Virus record (IMG/VR): IMGVR_UViG_3300020596_000095
Span: 1 to 26,229 of that record
DNA length: 26,229 bases
Direction: 5' to 3' (one strand)
Source: a virus
The notes below the pieces were generated by a model. That model had not been told where the DNA came from. It saw only the letters and a list, made by a program, of their open reading frames with translations, and did no database searches. A program made the position numbers and the translations under genes. Of the stretch, positions 7,865-16,174 are shown piece by piece; position 1 is the stretch's first letter; the number at the start of each line of letters is the position of its first letter.

Positions 7865-8236
7865 TTAGATACCTGCCGTCTCAGGAATACGAACCACAGC
7901 AAACAGAATGCCAGCGTTGGAGCCTTTCAAATAGACCTTTCCGCCGCTTTGCTCCCAGCCGGACTTTTTCCCAAACCAAAAAGATGCATACTCACCATTC
8001 GTCAGCGCGTAGGCTGTCACGTCCCCTGTCCGTTGCTTCTCATCCGCGACACTCTCCAGCGTGAATGTGTACGCACCGGTGCTTTTCACCACCAGCAATT
8101 CGCGCCCGGTAAAGACAAACTCGTCAAAATCAGCCACAGATGAAGCAGTGAAGATAAAATCTAAACTTCCCGCCGTGGGCTGAAGTGCGAGATACGGCCC
8201 TTTTGGGGCGATGATCGGTTGCGCCTGTCTTGGCAT
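7865..8236 (-). CDS. Hypothetical tail-module protein
   Basis: The 123-residue protein starts at ATG 8236 with GGGAAG eight bases upstream. It begins MPRQAQPIIAPKGPYLALQP and looks mostly beta: LDFIFTASS, DEFVFTGRELLVV, GAYTFTLESVADEKQRTGD, then YASFWFGKKSGW and a conserved-looking end GGKVYLKGSNAGILFAVV. There is no signal peptide or membrane segment. In lambda, G directly follows the tail tube gene V, so this is an extra gene inserted at that point. The beta character and position suggest a small structural protein of the tail, for example one decorating the tube. I do not recognise the family, and the function is open. Confidence 0.7.
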   Translation of the reverse strand: MPRQAQPIIAPKGPYLALQPTAGSLDFIFTASSVADFDEFVFTGRELLVVKSTGAYTFTLESVADEKQRTGDVTAYALTNGEYASFWFGKKSGWEQSGGKVYLKGSNAGILFAVVRIPETAGI

Positions 8237-8734: not shown

Positions 8735-9202
8735 CTACCCCTGTGCGTAAGGATCATCACGCACATGCTCAAAGATACATTCAAAAAATAACACTTTTGA
8801 TAAATGCGGCATGGTCATGTCGAGCTCTGTTTCCATATATGCCGCGGGGTCTGTATCAATTGCCAGCCCGCCCCATGACCGATCTCCCTGCACGCACTTT
8901 TCAACATCCGCCAACAGACTGTTAAGGATTGCACCACCGGTAGGCGTCTCGCCGACTTGCGTAGTAATGATCACGATATAGCACCCCATGCGCTTCTGGA
9001 CATTCGGATAGACCGACCGGCCTTTTTCCGGGTCTGTATTCCCTTCTTTCAGAAGCAGCGTCGGTAGGTCGGCAATAGAAATGCCGCTCAGGTTGTGTCG
9101 TTGCACCGTCGCGATTGTGTTCATATACCCGTTGGCGGGCGTGATTGTCGTCAGTCTCGCCGCGATCCTCACCATGATTTGTTCTTGAATGCTATCGGGC
9201 AC
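8735..9202 (-). CDS. Tail terminator-like protein (lambda gpU position)
   Basis: This 155-residue protein lies just before the tail tube gene, where lambda has U, the protein that caps the tube and stops its growth. It begins with an amphipathic helix (DSIQEQIMVRIAARLTTI) and has strands and a helix later (MGCYIVIITTQV, GGAILNSLLADVEKCV), ending LSKVLFFECIFEHVRDDPYA, all typical of the tail terminator / tail completion fold. The start is uncertain: GTG 9202 overlaps the preceding gene by 11 bases, and ATG 9175 would remove nine residues; neither has a clear ribosome binding site. The assignment rests on size, fold pattern and gene order rather than on a strict motif. Confidence 0.72.
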   Translation of the reverse strand: MPDSIQEQIMVRIAARLTTITPANGYMNTIATVQRHNLSGISIADLPTLLLKEGNTDPEKGRSVYPNVQKRMGCYIVIITTQVGETPTGGAILNSLLADVEKCVQGDRSWGGLAIDTDPAAYMETELDMTMPHLSKVLFFECIFEHVRDDPYAQG

Positions 9203-9686
9203 CTTGCACCAACGCCTTTTTCAGTGTGTCGTGTGTTGCTCGTGTTGCAGCTTTTCCGACCCTCACCAGCACTGCCGGCGCTTCCGCCCGCACCTGCGAT
9301 TCGAAGTGAAGGCGTTTAGGAATTTTCACCTGATCGACCACCGCAACGATTTGCCCCTTTTCCCGCAAATATAATTTCTTCCCGCCAGCCGCTCGAATCG
9401 TCAACCCTTTATCGTGGACGTGTAACAGCCGACTAATACGGATCGCTCCGCCTAACTGTTTCAGGCTTTTGCTGTCCACAAAAGTGACAACGTTTTTCCC
9501 CTTGGTCAACCGCCCACCTTTGATCCCAGGTGGGCCTTGTAATTGCGTCTTGATGAACGATTTCTTAATGCGCTTCAAACCCCTGGATAACTCCGTGCTC
9601 ATGTACCGCAATTGCACGCTTGGTGTCTTTGCGACCGCCGCAATAAATTTACCCATCATGGGTATCGCGGTATTCACGCGCGCCAT
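9192..9686 (-). CDS. Minor tail / tail completion protein, gpZ-like
   Basis: The 164-residue protein is basic and begins MARVNTAIPMMGKFIAAVAK, then has a KPP-like region (LQGPPGIKGGRLTKGK) often seen in prophage minor tail protein Z and HK97 gp10-type proteins, which act at the head-tail joint or finish the tail. The C-terminus is helical and basic (GKAATRATHDTLKKAL). Its start is coupled to the stop of the giant exported protein as TAATG, so translation may depend on ribosomes leaving that gene. In lambda this gene follows FII directly; here four exported-protein genes separate the two. Confidence 0.75.
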   Translation of the reverse strand: MARVNTAIPMMGKFIAAVAKTPSVQLRYMSTELSRGLKRIKKSFIKTQLQGPPGIKGGRLTKGKNVVTFVDSKSLKQLGGAIRISRLLHVHDKGLTIRAAGGKKLYLREKGQIVAVVDQVKIPKRLHFESQVRAEAPAVLVRVGKAATRATHDTLKKALVQGAR

Positions 9687-12600
9687 TATTCAGCAGGCCT
9701 TTCATCACGGCTCACTGTGCCACGATCCGGGTCACCACGACTTTCTCCAAATCTAATTGCATCCCTTTGGGAATTTTTCCCGACAATCGGTGTCACGCCG
9801 CACACGGTGTTGGAATAGCCAGGACTTAGATTCGGCGCTGCGGCACTATCCACGGTTCGGACGCGCCAGCAATACCCAATGCCAGGCGTCAGTTGCCGAA
9901 CAGAAAAATTGTCGATAGTCGGAGCGGCAGCTGATGCAAAGTTAGTACACGGCACACCTGCCACTCCTGCCCATGGTGTACACTGTTCAATCACCGATCT
10001 AACAGGCCCTTGGTTGTCCACGCCTAACGTCCACACAAGTAAGGCCGACTGTGTAAAGACTTCCACGGTCAGGTTACTCGCGTTCGTCGGCGGGTCAAGA
10101 TCGAGCACCGCGCTGGTCGTGACCGTTTGCACGTTAGAATTCGCACTCTCGTTTTCAGCCGTATCCACGAATCGCACGATCGTGTTCACCACCGTATCAG
10201 CGGGTAGCCCCGTTCTGATCACTGAGAGATCTGCAAGCGGAACTTCAGGGCCATGATATATGTAATCAGTACTCCCTGCGCCAAATGACAGATACGTCCT
10301 CCATCCTCGAATATCTCCATCCGCATTAGCAGGAGGCTGAATCACCAACTCAACCTGTGAGCTGCTTCTTGCCGTCGCCACAACGATCGGCTCTTCAGGA
10401 GGGGTGGTATCGCCAGGGGTCGCGGACACAACCACGGTCGCCACAGCGTTCGTCGGATTAAATATCGTGACCTGTGACGTATTTTCAAAACCACATGCCA
10501 TATAGTAGGTCGTCGTGGTATTGTCTGTCAGTCCTGTCACTACCTGCGACCCCTGCAATCCCGATGCACTCATTGTCAGTGTCATGGATGTGTAAGGAAT
10601 ATCGGTGAGTGCATAACGAGCGTTGCAGGGCTTGTCCGCGAGAAATCCAATGATGGCAGATGTTGTACCAGCCGGATACGAAAACGCCGCAAGTGGTTGA
10701 GGATTTGATAACACTGGCGGCACTGTGTCTGCGACTGGTGCGGCAGCGACTGCCGCGCATCGCTGCCCGCCAACAACCTCTGATCCTGTAGCCGTCCGCG
10801 CAATCGCACAGACATAATTCGTCATGCCTGAAATGAATTGGTTGTCCCAGCTATACGCCCCACCTACGATACCGACTATCGGCACCGTCACAGTTGAGAA
10901 CTCTGAAAAAAACCTGATGAAGGCCGGTGAGCCGGTCGTGGCGACGCCAGACACTCCTGTACGCCCCACAACCGTAAACGCTGAGATCGTTGGCACAACA
11001 GCCGGGGTCGAAGAGATCGTTTCCACCACCACATCGTCGAACTGCGCCAATGTGGGCGGGTTGCCGTATGTCATTAGCCCGACTCGCACGTTACTTGCAT
11101 ACGTGGAATCTGTAGCCGATGTTACGAGGGTTTCCGCCCCCGCACGAATCGCGTAACAACGAATCACATTTCCTTCTTTTTCTGCCCTCATCCTATCTGT
11201 TTGTACCCATGACCATGACGTGACGGAAACCAACGGAGTCATTACCCCAGCAACCCATCGCTCAACCTGCGTCGTCGTGCCAGGGGATACAACACGGCAC
11301 GCATTGGCGTTGAAATCAGGGCCAGCGCCCGCCCCTACCAGTAACCCGGGGTATGAGTTGGTGGCTGTGTAGACCGATAGGGTAGCAGTGATGGCGTGGT
11401 CTGCCGACGTGGCCACTACGGTCATTGCGGAATCACCAACACTTGCTGGGACGGCTCGCTGTGAGAGAATTTGAAAATTCTGCTTGGTGGCCGTTCCTCC
11501 TGCGGCAGCAGGCTTGATGGCGATCAACGAAATAGAGCCTCGTTCATTGTATGCCTGTGTCCACCTCATGGTCCTTGCGCCGGTCCCGACCTCAGCCAGA
11601 TAACTCACCCCGAACCCATCGTTGCCCACGCCTCTACGTGTCACCTGTACGGCACCGAGCGAAGTGTCTAGCGTTAGTCCGCCAGATGCTCGCCCCGCCG
11701 CACACGAAAACACCCATGCTTTATCATTCACCACAGTGGTACTCGCGCTAAGAGCCGAGCCAGTAGTGTTAAACGATGCGCCACCCGATGAATCGATCAG
11801 TGCCGCCGTATCTGCGCCAGATAATTGTATCCACGTCACCGCACCGCCCCATTGGTTTTTTACAGCAGCCGACCATGCCGCAACCCCATTCGCCGTCGTG
11901 ACTGTCGGATTGACCATATAGTACCAGGCAGAATTTCCGGCATCGAAGTCAACGCCACCGTTCCACGAATCTGTCTGTGAGGCAGTCATCGCCGAGCCGT
12001 TGAACGTCACGCCTGACGGCCCACCACCGGCGTAACTTCCGCTCCCGACACAAGCCAATAGGACTTTGGTCGTGGCGTCGATCGTCAAAGATTGCGTGGA
12101 ACTTGTGGCACTCACGACCCCGGCCGCTTCGACCTTTGGTGCACTCAACGCAATCACTCCGCCAACAGGGTCGGTATATCCACCAGCCCATGGTTTCCCC
12201 GTGCGGTTGATGGTCGTAGGATTGTCAGATACATTGAAATCGTCGGTAAACTCCGTCGTTCTATACAACACATTCGCTGATGGGGTTGTGGCTGTAACCG
12301 TGGTAGTAGGGGTAGACTTCAGCCCAACACCATTCACACCTTCGAGCCGGTAGCTGTACGTCGTACCTGCCGGGAGATTGATGTGGAGATACTGCCGAGG
12401 GGTGGCAGCGTTGGCGCTGACGGTCGTGAGCACAGACGTTGGGGTACAACTAGGAGTTGCGCACATGAGCACATTTGTTGATGCATAGCCGCTTTCGTTG
12501 TCCGCTCCCTGTGCAGTCCATGCGACAGTAATTTGTGAGCTGCTTGCGGTAGCAGTGAGTCCTGTTGGCGCCGATGGAGGCGTGGTATCTGGAGGAGGAG

Positions 12601-13444
12601 GAGGAGGCGCTATACCACCTGGCATGCCGATCCGTGTCGTGGAGGTCACGCTGTGATCGTAATACACATACTGTGTCTGTGGTAATGTCCAAGTGCCCCC
12701 GCCACCAAGAATAGGTGTATTCTTTACAAGACCAAACACACTATTGTTCGTTCGGAGCACGACGTCAAAATGCTCCATCATCAGCACGTCATTCACCCAT
12801 ACTCGATAGATCCCGTCGTGGCTCGAACTCAAGCCATTCCCTACGGTATTCATTTTCGAGTACGTTTCGACCCAATACCACGTACCGGGAACAAATGTCA
12901 TGGAGGCTTTGTTCTGGTTGTAGTTCCGCGTACATACTTGCGTCGCCCAGTCGGGGCGTGGGGTGTAGGTGCAGTTGTTCCACCATAGCTGTGCGGTAGC
13001 TGCCATGTAAGTCCCAGTAAGGCCCGATATGGTCAGCGCCATGTTGTCCTGGCTCGTTCCGACATTGCCGGCTGAGGGAGTTCGGTTGACGGTGAAGGAT
13101 TGCTTGGTGGCAATGGGATGCCAACTAAATGGGGAGCTGTACTTCACCCAGTATCCGTAATAGATCTCCGTCAGATTATACTGGCTGGGAATATCATATG
13201 CAGATGTTCCACCACTCGTGCTAGAGGTTTTTATTCCAGCAACGTGTCTTCCTGTGATAGCCGTTCCTCCTGAGGGGGAGCTGCCGCCAATGGGTGATGT
13301 GATGATGGGATAGAGATCTGCTTCCGCATTGCTATAGCTCCACCCTGCTTGGGTTTTATTGTTGAACTCGTTCGTGTCGATAACCAGAGCCTGTGCCGCC
13401 GGCGCGAACAACAAGAGAAAGAGCGTAATCCATATTCTTAACAT
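9686..13444 (-). CDS. Giant exported multidomain protein (signal peptide, lectin-like and fibronectin type III domains)
   Basis: The frame is open to 13546, but ATG 13444 is chosen: AGGTGG lies just upstream and the protein then starts with a clear Sec signal peptide, MLRIWITLFLLLFAPAAQA, ending in an AxA cleavage site. The 1252 residues contain: about 20-275, a concanavalin-like fold with WYWVETYSK and DGIYRVWVNDVLM, as in polysaccharide-lyase/laminin-G families; about 277-283, a proline run; about 285-385, a fibronectin type III domain (DTTPPSAPTGLTA); about 450-645, a module homologous to the preceding gene; about 655-815, a second lectin-like domain; then three Ig/fibronectin-like domains (VPPVLSNP, DTTPPEEP, DPPTNASN). 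Many cysteines fit an oxidising location. No catalytic centre can be assigned. It overlaps its upstream neighbour by seven bases. Confidence 0.85.
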   Translation of the reverse strand: MLRIWITLFLLLFAPAAQALVIDTNEFNNKTQAGWSYSNAEADLYPIITSPIGGSSPSGGTAITGRHVAGIKTSSTSGGTSAYDIPSQYNLTEIYYGYWVKYSSPFSWHPIATKQSFTVNRTPSAGNVGTSQDNMALTISGLTGTYMAATAQLWWNNCTYTPRPDWATQVCTRNYNQNKASMTFVPGTWYWVETYSKMNTVGNGLSSSHDGIYRVWVNDVLMMEHFDVVLRTNNSVFGLVKNTPILGGGGTWTLPQTQYVYYDHSVTSTTRIGMPGGIAPPPPPPDTTPPSAPTGLTATASSSQITVAWTAQGADNESGYASTNVLMCATPSCTPTSVLTTVSANAATPRQYLHINLPAGTTYSYRLEGVNGVGLKSTPTTTVTATTPSANVLYRTTEFTDDFNVSDNPTTINRTGKPWAGGYTDPVGGVIALSAPKVEAAGVVSATSSTQSLTIDATTKVLLACVGSGSYAGGGPSGVTFNGSAMTASQTDSWNGGVDFDAGNSAWYYMVNPTVTTANGVAAWSAAVKNQWGGAVTWIQLSGADTAALIDSSGGASFNTTGSALSASTTVVNDKAWVFSCAAGRASGGLTLDTSLGAVQVTRRGVGNDGFGVSYLAEVGTGARTMRWTQAYNERGSISLIAIKPAAAGGTATKQNFQILSQRAVPASVGDSAMTVVATSADHAITATLSVYTATNSYPGLLVGAGAGPDFNANACRVVSPGTTTQVERWVAGVMTPLVSVTSWSWVQTDRMRAEKEGNVIRCYAIRAGAETLVTSATDSTYASNVRVGLMTYGNPPTLAQFDDVVVETISSTPAVVPTISAFTVVGRTGVSGVATTGSPAFIRFFSEFSTVTVPIVGIVGGAYSWDNQFISGMTNYVCAIARTATGSEVVGGQRCAAVAAAPVADTVPPVLSNPQPLAAFSYPAGTTSAIIGFLADKPCNARYALTDIPYTSMTLTMSASGLQGSQVVTGLTDNTTTTYYMACGFENTSQVTIFNPTNAVATVVVSATPGDTTPPEEPIVVATARSSSQVELVIQPPANADGDIRGWRTYLSFGAGSTDYIYHGPEVPLADLSVIRTGLPADTVVNTIVRFVDTAENESANSNVQTVTTSAVLDLDPPTNASNLTVEVFTQSALLVWTLGVDNQGPVRSVIEQCTPWAGVAGVPCTNFASAAAPTIDNFSVRQLTPGIGYCWRVRTVDSAAAPNLSPGYSNTVCGVTPIVGKNSQRDAIRFGESRGDPDRGTVSRDERPAE

Positions 13445-14178
13445 CCACCTGCCCCCATTAGCATTAGTGAGCCATTGCACGCGCCTGCCGCCAATTGTTT
13501 TATACCTCTGACGATAATGGCCCACGTCGCGGATGATTGCGTCCAATTCAATGTCGCGCTCCCCGCAGTTGGTACCGCGAGCGTCGAACTTCCATGCCCC
13601 ATACTATTGGCGGTATTGTTTTGCTGCTGGACACCACTCGCCCCGATGGTGAGGCCTCCTGCCGCCTGCCCCATGACGCAGCCTATGGCCATTGATCCGT
13701 TCGTTGCAGTCGTAATGGTCCCAGATGGTGCGGTACTATTCCCGGTCCCAGTGACGCCGCCGTCACTAGCTGACGTATCAGCACCACTAAATTGCATCGC
13801 GTCTCCGTTGGCAGAGAAGGATGTGTCAGCCGTGCCCGCCCACGTGATAACGACATTCGCAGTTGTGACCGTAGGCGCGGCGGTCAGTCGCCAAAACTCG
13901 ACCTTGAGGTTATTCCCGTTTGCAACGTTGCCAATACTCGCTAAATTTTCAGACCCGTTGAACACCACACTCGTTGCAAAGTTGGCATTATTCCCACGCG
14001 ACTGCACACACACATACAGCGCATTCGTCGCCGCATCTATCGTGATTGACTTGGTAAGCGTCGTGACAGCGGAGCCCGCCGTAAATCCGTCACGTTTGAC
14101 AATCGCCACATCAGCCCACGCTGGGAGCGCCAGTGACCAAATGAGAAAGGTGAGAAGTATGCTGGAGGCTACTTTCAT
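13438..14178 (-). CDS. Exported beta-rich protein with signal peptide
   Basis: The 246-residue protein begins MKVASSILLTFLIWSLALPA and has a Sec signal peptide with an AWA cleavage site near residue 22. The mature part is a repetitive beta structure: SITIDAATNALYVCVQSR, SVVFNGSENLAS, APTVTTANVVITWAG, ADTSASDGGVTGTGNST, and a C-terminal IIVRGIKQLAAGA. This order of motifs is repeated inside the 1252-residue protein encoded next, so the two share a module. The start ATG 14178 overlaps the previous stop as TGATG; a GTG lies one codon earlier. GAGGAG is about 14 bases away, so coupling rather than free initiation is likely. No enzyme motif is seen. Confidence 0.78.
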   Translation of the reverse strand: MKVASSILLTFLIWSLALPAWADVAIVKRDGFTAGSAVTTLTKSITIDAATNALYVCVQSRGNNANFATSVVFNGSENLASIGNVANGNNLKVEFWRLTAAPTVTTANVVITWAGTADTSFSANGDAMQFSGADTSASDGGVTGTGNSTAPSGTITTATNGSMAIGCVMGQAAGGLTIGASGVQQQNNTANSMGHGSSTLAVPTAGSATLNWTQSSATWAIIVRGIKQLAAGACNGSLMLMGAGGC

Positions 14179-14504
14179 CACGGTATAACAGTCTCCTCAA
14201 TGGCGGGTCGCACAGGGCGCGTGATGGAGAGCTTGTCACCCGACTTTACTCTCGTTGGAATGCCCTTCACCCCGTTCAATCGCTCAATGATCCCTGCCGA
14301 CCATTCAGCCAATTGGTCTGGTAGGAAATTCCACGGTAGCAGCGTGGAATAGCGGACGGGGGTTTCACTCGGCCCAGTAAACCGCGCAGTAAGCGAGAAA
14401 GTCCCGCGCGAGTCCACTGGCTCAACTTGATCGACCGTCACATCATCGTAACCGGCCCATGCGGGAGTCGCGCTAAGAATGAAACAGATCAAAAGTAGAT
14501 ACAT
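14178..14504 (-). CDS. Small exported protein with signal peptide
   Basis: The 108-residue protein starts at ATG 14504 with GGGAG seven bases upstream. It begins MYLLLICFILSATPAWA, a compact signal peptide with an AWA cleavage site at residue 17, although it lacks a basic residue in the first positions. The mature ~91 residues contain RGTFSLTARFTGPSETPVRY and LLPWNFLPDQLAEWSAGIIE, with no cysteine and no membrane helix. A periplasmic or secreted location follows from the signal. I do not recognise the family. It is the second gene of the exported cassette, tightly placed 12 bases after the first and overlapping the third. Confidence 0.7.
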   Translation of the reverse strand: MYLLLICFILSATPAWAGYDDVTVDQVEPVDSRGTFSLTARFTGPSETPVRYSTLLPWNFLPDQLAEWSAGIIERLNGVKGIPTRVKSGDKLSITRPVRPAIEETVIP

Positions 14505-14516
14505 TGTGAATCTCCC

Positions 14517-15812
14517 TTAGTTAGCTGCGACGACATAGCTGATCACACCTGAGAGCTGCCCGGTGCTCGACATGAGGATGCAGATATTATCAGCATCCGT
14601 GTCGGACTTGGCGACAGTTCCCCTGCCATCTCCTAACGCAATTCCACCATTCGCTGCGAAATTCCATCCAGTCGCCGCAGTCGTCCCACCGATCATCGCG
14701 CCAAGGCTGGTCGCACAGACAGTTCCGGTCCCACTCACAAGGGCAATGTTTTGTGCAGTCGCACTCATCACCGTGACGGCGCATACATACGTGCGCATAG
14801 AGGCGGTCCCTGTAATGATCTGCGTGCCTGTCGTTTGGCTGATTGGCACAAGAATCTTGGCGGCCCCAGCGCACGGGTCGGCAATCGACGCAAGGACACG
14901 AGTGGAAATGGTATCTAGTTGTGTGGTCATCAGCCGGAGTTTAGCCGTCAGCGAGCCGGCTGCGCCTGTTGTTGCAGCGGCATCTGCTGCTGCTCCTACC
15001 CCTGCGGAAAGCTGACTATCGTTCGCCTCAGTTGTGCGAGAAGATCCGGTACCTGTCGATCCCGCGCCCATGAGCGGCGCCACGCCATTGATCTGTGAGA
15101 TGTTCGCACCTGAGCCAGACACAATGTTATCGAGGAGCTGCAATGCCGTGATCTGGGTGGTTTGATTCGCCGCGCTGGCATCGCCAGCCCCAGCCCCAGA
15201 GCTAGACCCTGCGATGCCCTGATTCACCCACGCCTGAACGGTTGCCCCTGTGCCGGAAATGGATGTGGTTACCCAATGATACCAGTTGCAATCTTTCGTA
15301 AACTGTGGAAGCTCATCAACATCCTTTGTGGTTGCACTCAAGGCAATCGTGCCGATCAGCGATCCGTGCGTGGTCGTGTTTTCGCCATCGCAATACAGCG
15401 CCACATTGGCAACTTGCGCGCCTGTGCCGGTCACTGAGGCCCAAGGCGTTTTGGATCCGCTCGGCAGCGTAAACGTGGCGCTGGTCGTGTTCGTTGTCAC
15501 GCCGGTCATGCCGATATGTGTCTGGATATTCGCGCCCAGTAGCTTCATCCATGATTCACCAGAGCACTTACTTTCGCCCGACAGGCACGGCAAATTGATT
15601 CGCAAACCGTTCAATAAATCAAACGATAAGCTCGCTGTTGCGCCCTCTGCTAATGTCGGGGCAACAGATGTGGCGGCCCCAACACCCTGCCCTTCAGTCG
15701 TCACATATAATGGATTGGACACCGTGCCGCCCGCCGCGTATGTCGTAGAGGGAGCGACCAATGCCAGCATCATGCTAATCGCCAGCAACCATTTCATCGA
15801 TACACGCATCAT
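14517..15812 (-). CDS. Exported protein with phage structural-like sequence
   Basis: The 431-residue protein has a signal peptide: charged MMRVSMKW, a hydrophobic LLAISMMLALVA, and a cleavage site near TTYA-A at residue 26. GGGAGG seven bases before ATG 15812 supports this start (ATG 15797 would also keep the signal). The mature part contains phrases frequent in phage structural proteins, such as AATTGAAGSLTAKLRLMTTQ near residues 285-305, and glycine/alanine-rich linkers. Eight cysteines (LPC, SKC, LYC, KDC, DPC, YVC, TVC, NIC) are an even number and would suit disulphides outside the cytoplasm. It heads the exported cassette and follows the FII-position gene by 14 bases. Function is unknown; a secreted or surface-displayed virion-related protein is the best guess. 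Confidence 0.78.
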   Translation of the reverse strand: MMRVSMKWLLAISMMLALVAPSTTYAAGGTVSNPLYVTTEGQGVGAATSVAPTLAEGATASLSFDLLNGLRINLPCLSGESKCSGESWMKLLGANIQTHIGMTGVTTNTTSATFTLPSGSKTPWASVTGTGAQVANVALYCDGENTTTHGSLIGTIALSATTKDVDELPQFTKDCNWYHWVTTSISGTGATVQAWVNQGIAGSSSGAGAGDASAANQTTQITALQLLDNIVSGSGANISQINGVAPLMGAGSTGTGSSRTTEANDSQLSAGVGAAADAAATTGAAGSLTAKLRLMTTQLDTISTRVLASIADPCAGAAKILVPISQTTGTQIITGTASMRTYVCAVTVMSATAQNIALVSGTGTVCATSLGAMIGGTTAATGWNFAANGGIALGDGRGTVAKSDTDADNICILMSSTGQLSGVISYVVAAN

Positions 15813-15826
15813 CAGTACCCCCTCCC

Positions 15827-16174
15827 CTACGTTTGGGCCAAGACAATAAAGGCGCCGTTACCGTTGCCAAAGCCATCATCTTCGCTAATCACCGTTTGCA
15901 CGACGAACAGCGTTGTGTCTGCATCGCTGAGATTCTTTTTCATACGAATTTTATCCAAACGCTCTTGAATCACCAGCACCCCATATTCGCTGTCTTTTGC
16001 GATCAACACCTGCCGAGTGTTCGCGCTATATCGCTGGCCGTTTGTCACTTGCACGTCATGCGTGGGTCGATCACGATCGACACACGCAAGAAACTCTAGA
16101 TCCGCACTCCCATATGGAGTGTACGTGATCATTTCCCCGCCGAGTTGCTTGATCAAATTCACAGTGGCAGACAT
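15827..16174 (-). CDS. Head-tail connector-like protein (lambda FII position)
   Basis: The 115-residue protein starts ATG 16174 directly after the TAA of the preceding gene. It begins MSATVNLIKQLGGEMITYTP and includes a beta core (YSANTRQVLIAKDSEYGVLV, TLFVVQTVISEDDGFGNG), resembling head-tail attachment proteins that finish the head and accept the tail. Its place after the FI-position gene matches lambda FII. It has no signal peptide, in contrast to the four genes that follow. The family link is by size, position and beta pattern, so it is moderately sure. Confidence 0.65.
   Translation of the reverse strand: MSATVNLIKQLGGEMITYTPYGSADLEFLACVDRDRPTHDVQVTNGQRYSANTRQVLIAKDSEYGVLVIQERLDKIRMKKNLSDADTTLFVVQTVISEDDGFGNGNGAFIVLAQT

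Follow-up and report, generated by a model that had tools for sequence, protein, structure and literature searches.

A block of four leader-bearing genes within a virion operon

The window analysed here is the whole 26.2-kb IMG/VR virus record IMGVR_UViG_3300020596_000095. On its minus strand, PHROG matches give the order primase-like gene, TerS, TerL, portal, virion structural protein and major head protein, followed by tail terminator, major tail protein, chaperone, tape measure and fibre-like genes. Four consecutive open reading frames on this strand, with verified coordinates and plausible starts, form the block described below: gene A (14517–15812, 431 amino acids), gene B (14178–14504, 108 amino acids), gene C (13438–14178, 246 amino acids) and gene D (9686–13444, 1,252 amino acids). 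The block stands between a gene in the head–tail joining position ('FII-like'; 15827–16174, minus strand) and a gene in the Z position (9192–9686, minus strand), labels that are based on position and on similarity to two relatives, L001 (38% for the FII-like and 35% for the Z-like gene) and L041 (32% and 33%). The major head protein of L001 is 77% identical to that of the window. In both L001 and L041 the two flanking genes are direct neighbours, and the block A–D is therefore an insertion. The stops of B, C and D are overlapped by the starts of C, D and the Z-position gene, respectively, the last of these in TAATG, and a gap of 12 nt separates A from B. These results confirmed the original prediction of four coupled genes placed between two genes that adjoin each other elsewhere. 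A–D matched no PHROG family, including the minor tail families phrog_2106 and phrog_553, and no outer-membrane-protein (Lom-type) family in Pfam. Searches of GenBank phages by tblastn with C and D gave no matches, nor did single-sequence searches of viral contigs with P0006, P0001 and P0004.

We scored N-termini with our own heuristic, which uses n-region charge, the h-region and the AxA site. Scores were 4.79 for A, 5.39 for B, 4.8 for C and 5.17 for D, and all remaining window genes scored 3.3 or less. The same heuristic gave scores of 4.3–5.6 to all but one of eight textbook E. coli leaders (PhoA was missed, at 3.0), and pseudo-starts inside window proteins reached 4.4 in 6 of 1,042 cases. 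The predicted signal peptides are MMRVSMKWLLAISMMLALVAPSTTYA in A (residues 1–26, 15735–15812), MYLLLICFILSATPAWA in B (residues 1–17, 14454–14504), MKVASSILLTFLIWSLALPAWA in C (residues 1–22, 14113–14178) and MLRIWITLFLLLFAPAAQA in D (residues 1–19, 13388–13444), all on the minus strand, with predicted cleavage between TYA and AGG in A, AWA and GYD in B, AWA and DVA in C, and AQA and LVI in D. The n-region of B is neutral; by our heuristic, all four proteins have the n-region, hydrophobic core and AxA-type site of Sec substrates. The prediction that A–D carry Sec-type signal peptides holds, and among the window genes only these four do so.

Exported genes within phage tail regions are known to serve superinfection exclusion or surface change. 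One alternative is that A–D, in the manner of lambda lom or N15 cor, alter the surface of the host cell ahead of lysis and so cause aggregation or superinfection exclusion. A report on Porphyromonas phages offers a parallel, as several exported genes are proposed there to alter the outer membrane (PMC10367356). In A–D, however, we found no lipobox, the residue following the cleavage site being A, G, D and L rather than cysteine, and we saw no second membrane segment, both of which speak against a cell-surface role before lysis. The very large, multi-domain D protein and the non-exported homologues that occupy the same position in other phages also argue against this alternative, which we consider improbable; superinfection exclusion and aggregation, as originally suggested, were not supported as such.

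Domain content of the four products

The C-terminal region of A (residues 310–431, 14520–14885, minus strand) forms a predicted beta-sandwich domain, as defined by alignments and AlphaFold (pLDDT about 75–93 across the domain). Searches with this domain found 31 viral loci with a type 1 domain, the window type, and 80 with a type 2 domain, the L001 type; an alignment of the profiles of the two types was not significant. The domain has cysteines at residues 314, 344, 366 and 411; in the type 1 alignment (A6), Cys344, Cys366 and Cys411 are invariant and Cys314 is nearly so. The predicted disulphides join Cys314 to Cys344 and Cys366 to Cys411. It resembles uncharacterised phage proteins in BFVD (TM 0.80 by target). 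The top structural match was to the jelly roll of Ena, an endospore appendage protein (Z 8.3, rmsd 5.2, 102 residues), yet this Z lies near the level of chance best matches. We did not adopt an Ena-like fibre fold for this domain, for which no supporting Pfam sequence match was found. In the central repeat region of A, residues 219–288 match leaderless L100 (43%, E 2e-5) and residues 221–265 match L117 (50%); exported L186 also shares this region. Sequence similarity in this region relates A to the leaderless A-type proteins of phages ('glycoprotein repeat domain').

The mature part of B resembles the leaderless B′ protein of L001 (16020–16412), although the match is weak (pairwise E 5e-4). 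C is homologous to residues 447–649 of D (35%), and near its C terminus it carries the motif CNGSLMLMGAGGC (13441–13479, minus strand) between Cys234 and Cys246, the equivalent of the LLGVG-type ends on the gene following A in other phages.

D combines several domains, all on the minus strand. Its N-terminal region (12590–13387) has a sub-cut-off match to polysaccharide lyase family 14 (PF21294; residues 169–263, 26.3 bits against a curated cut-off of 27, E 7e-6), and the AlphaFold model of this region has a pLDDT of 27.8. A fibronectin type III domain follows (residues 291–382, 12299–12574; PF00041, E 2.8e-6). The domain homologous to C (residues 447–649, 11498–12106) resembles the product of L111 8475–9137 (27% over 180 amino acids, E 7e-5), which comes after a type 2 A, has the C terminus SLLGVGQ and finds PHROGs of phage minor tail proteins at an E value of about 1e-12. 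Through this intermediate, the C and D domain is indirectly tied to minor tail proteins, a link that sequence similarity suggests. Relatives of the D domains were too divergent to collect. The domains found in the block (lyase-like, fibronectin type III, minor-tail-linked and fibre-type) fit two further options of the original prediction, capsule binding and attachment to particles at lysis.

Similar blocks recur at other positions in structural operons

Searches of viral metagenomes showed that exported A-type blocks recur across numerous unrelated phages, and that L001 keeps the four-gene order, but the location differs from that in the window. In L001, A′, B′, C′ and D′ follow one another in the window order, with the tail chaperone region on one side and the tape measure on the other; C′ ends in LGLLGVGR, and D′ has a partial match to the pectate lyase PelN. 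Leaders are present on A′, C′ and D′ of L001 and absent from B′; members of a block are thus not always all exported, which complicates the proposal developed below. L195 has three exported genes (the third weakly PL14-like) after TerL and portal and ahead of scaffold. The podovirus ctLwi270 (GenBank) has a leader-bearing A relative after the portal gene, followed by two genes with leader-like starts, and further exported blocks lie near a head protein, portal or major tail protein. The setting was a structural operon at every locus with readable context. Because the position of the block varies among phages, it appears to move among structural operons, as far as the gene orders indicate. A significance of the FII/Z slot in itself, as originally suggested, was not supported, as blocks of this kind sit elsewhere in other phages.

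Type 1 matches were also found in Acidobacteria metagenome-assembled genomes (three relatives). We rejected Acidobacteriota as the main host, as the domain occurred in only 1 of 396 genomes of the phylum, which was the query genome itself. The three relatives, together with lyase-like domains that carry leaders, would suit an auxiliary metabolic cassette whose secreted polysaccharide-degrading enzymes feed the host. We regard this explanation as highly unlikely: the block lies inside a structural operon, where expression is expected to be late and feeding the host useless, and A and C match no enzyme family.

Predicted export state is coordinated and accompanied by even cysteine numbers

Near-duplicates were removed before counting, some of the data had already been seen when thresholds were set, and the ambiguous type 2 proteins L111, L151 and L158, which have weak or internal leader-like stretches, were not counted as exported. 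A leader was present on 17 of the 21 type 1 A proteins with an intact N terminus and on at most 6 of 52 type 2 proteins, three of these being ambiguous. The gene following A had a leader at 16 of 20 loci at which A is exported and at none of the 46 at which it is not (Fisher P = 6e-12, an optimistic value because the counted sequences are related). An LLGVG-type C terminus was found in the gene after A, within 5.5 kb, at 14 of 20 exported and 28 of 61 other loci, against a background of 9 in 943 open reading frames elsewhere. In exported forms, cysteines often lie beside this motif.

Even cysteine numbers are a known preference of exported bacterial proteins (PMC7678975). Export predicts disulphides, and the cysteine counts of the mature proteins in the window, 8 in A, 0 in B, 4 in C and 16 in D, agree with this prediction in being even; those of D stand in neighbouring pairs. 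By comparison, the window's tape measure has no cysteine in 751 residues, and two fibre-like genes have three each. Across loci, all 20 exported A proteins had an even mature cysteine count, as did 9 of the 30 non-exported A proteins having any cysteine, and cysteine density was about five times higher in the exported proteins (1.63 against 0.30 per 100 residues). Exported downstream proteins had even counts in 25 cases and odd counts in 4 (n = 29), whereas genes downstream of a non-exported A had even counts in 27 and odd counts in 40 (n = 67). Individual proteins point the same way. The A relative of ctLwi270 lacks both the first and the second type 1 cysteine, as would be expected of a pair, and among type 2 proteins a cysteine pair common to the exported L001 and L094 is absent from the leaderless sequences aligned with them.

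Even counts and disulphide-type pairs lend independent support to the original claim of exported proteins, which our heuristic had confirmed for the leaders of A–D. Three signs, namely leaders on the next gene, even cysteine numbers and a shared C-terminal motif, indicate that export is probably real and concerns the whole block. These observations also bear on the possibility that the hydrophobic N termini are virion features, for example leaders cut off by a prohead protease, an explanation that PMC10367356 offers for the signal-peptide-like starts of some major capsid proteins. Against it, even cysteine numbers and invariant cysteines track the leaders, leaderless homologues are cysteine-poor, and the leaders have complete n-, h- and c-regions with AxA sites, which leaves it with very little probability.

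A proposed model: periplasmic folding and release at lysis

Computation supports the leaders, the insertion, the recurrence, the coordinated export state, the disulphide signature and the domain content of the block. We infer, in addition, Sec export, periplasmic oxidative folding, release at lysis, virion attachment and a glycan target. In our preferred explanation, which we judge to have slightly better than an even chance of being correct, the block encodes a cassette of glycan-active proteins of the tail or fibre type, which are exported by Sec, fold in the periplasm, remain soluble, are released at lysis and act on surface polysaccharide. A–D would be made alongside the virion proteins but leave the cytoplasm by the Sec pathway. 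Once in the periplasm, an oxidising compartment, they would shed their leaders and acquire disulphides, with a maximum of four pairs in A, two in C and eight in D. As they have no recognisable anchor, A–D should stay soluble and be freed at lysis, after which they would act outside the cell on surface polysaccharide and might attach to the particle.

It is also possible that the products never join the particle and are free soluble lectins and polysaccharide-degrading enzymes, which would clear polysaccharide or occupy receptors on debris and so aid the spread of progeny. The lyase-like and fibronectin type III domains of D, the pectate-lyase-like stretch in L001 D′ and a beta-helix domain in L196 are all consistent with such a role, as are the separate non-exported tail fibre genes of the window and the fact that no virion anchor was seen in A–D. 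By contrast, the blocks are embedded in structural operons wherever context is readable, and the C and D domain is linked to minor tail proteins. Purely free enzymes or lectins seem rather unlikely to us, yet they are the chief alternative to attachment.

Attachment to the particle, as the destination envisaged in the preferred explanation, appears slightly more likely than a free state, because the leaderless counterparts of the exported proteins look like virion proteins and A and C share with these non-exported forms both their order and the C-terminal motif. A protein can be both exported and associated with the particle. More tentatively, and with a probability that we place below even, some tailed phages may finish their particles outside the cytoplasm, with Sec-exported, disulphide-folded receptor- or glycan-binding appendages docking during or after lysis, perhaps through the C-terminal domain of A and the LLGVG-type C-terminal motif of the protein that follows it. 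We know of no precedent in tailed phages for a protein that is made in the periplasm and meets the virion only after lysis.

Relation to known systems

Exported phage proteins are already known, as are phage depolymerases and fibres. Lambda Lom and the Cor proteins of N15 and phi80 are Sec-exported products of the late tail region. The block resembles them in encoding (here predicted) Sec-exported products within the late structural region, but Lom and Cor are small, single membrane proteins or lipoproteins, whereas the block encodes several soluble proteins of fibre- and lyase-like character, most of them rich in cysteine. Depolymerase tailspikes and tail fibres, which are normally cytoplasmic, leaderless and attached during assembly, share with the block polysaccharide-active and adhesive domains, modularity, high variability and a place in the structural operon; they differ from the leader-bearing A–D in having no leaders. 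Leaderless A-type genes (for example those of MW202647, MW202601 and Microcystis phage Mwe-JY08) likewise lie in structural operons, often with an LLGVG-ending gene after them, but unlike A of the window they lack a signal peptide, their cysteines are few and random in number, and their C-terminal domain is of type 2. Virion proteins of filamentous phages do pass through the Sec pathway, but these phages are extruded through the membrane instead of being released by lysis, and their proteins are unrelated to those of the block.

Porphyromonas gingivalis phages have several genes of unknown function fitted to the host Sec system, but the passages on them that we consulted mention neither a conserved block nor a disulphide signature, and no domains of fibre or lyase type (PMC10367356). 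Beyond that report, our searches of the literature outside subscription journals and preprints gave no precedent for tailed phages that export virion or fibre proteins, and no description of such an exported block.

Tailed phages are thought to assemble their particles wholly in the cytoplasm. If recurring, mobile blocks of this kind are indeed exported, either some virions are completed outside it, or a class of phages sets free a soluble toolkit when the cell lyses. Such blocks would also provide a simple sequence rule for finding proteins of this type, a leader and an even number of cysteines after an A-type gene, and disulphides would matter for the recombinant production of such binding proteins.

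C-terminal motif downstream of A-type genes

We found that, in many loci, the gene following the A-type gene (a relative of window gene A) ends in a C-terminal motif of the LLGVG/LMGAG type, in phages with exported A-type products, as predicted by a heuristic score of the N terminus, and in those with non-exported ones alike. Examples are the end of the 246-residue gene C in the window (13441-13479, minus strand), L001 16425-17171 and L082 12353-13609. In exported forms, cysteines often lie next to this motif, which is possibly a docking peptide.

Leaders and leader-like starts in related loci

As in the 'Q rule' of Bacteroidetes, glutamine often directly follows the predicted cleavage site, in nine of the viral loci compared (L081, L085, L094, L167, L171, L175, L184, L186 and L199); none of the window genes A, B, C and D has glutamine at this position. 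This residue could hint at the host. At L081 13470-15224 (MW202554) lies a gene annotated 'endopygalactorunase' (the spelling of the record), and the frame upstream of its annotated start codes for the leader-like stretch VRLLAIVTTLLVVMPALVEA. Judged from this sequence, the annotated start may be too far downstream.

A leader is also carried by L180 2910-3350, which directly precedes an exported A gene and is a relative of the small gene at window 7865-8236, the next one after the major tail protein. Large proteins downstream of tape measure or tail genes have leader-like or membrane-like N-terminal segments at L027 15820-19626, L054 16748-19825 and L012 18357-20930; such segments may belong to tail-tip proteins as a feature in their own right. 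Three genes in a row after the head protein in L038 (9150-11501) have leader-like starts; we noticed no similarity between these genes and A–D, and the start of the last appears dockerin-like by eye.

At the end of the record, window 123-788 matches homing endonucleases in PHROG, one match being of the GIY-YIG type.
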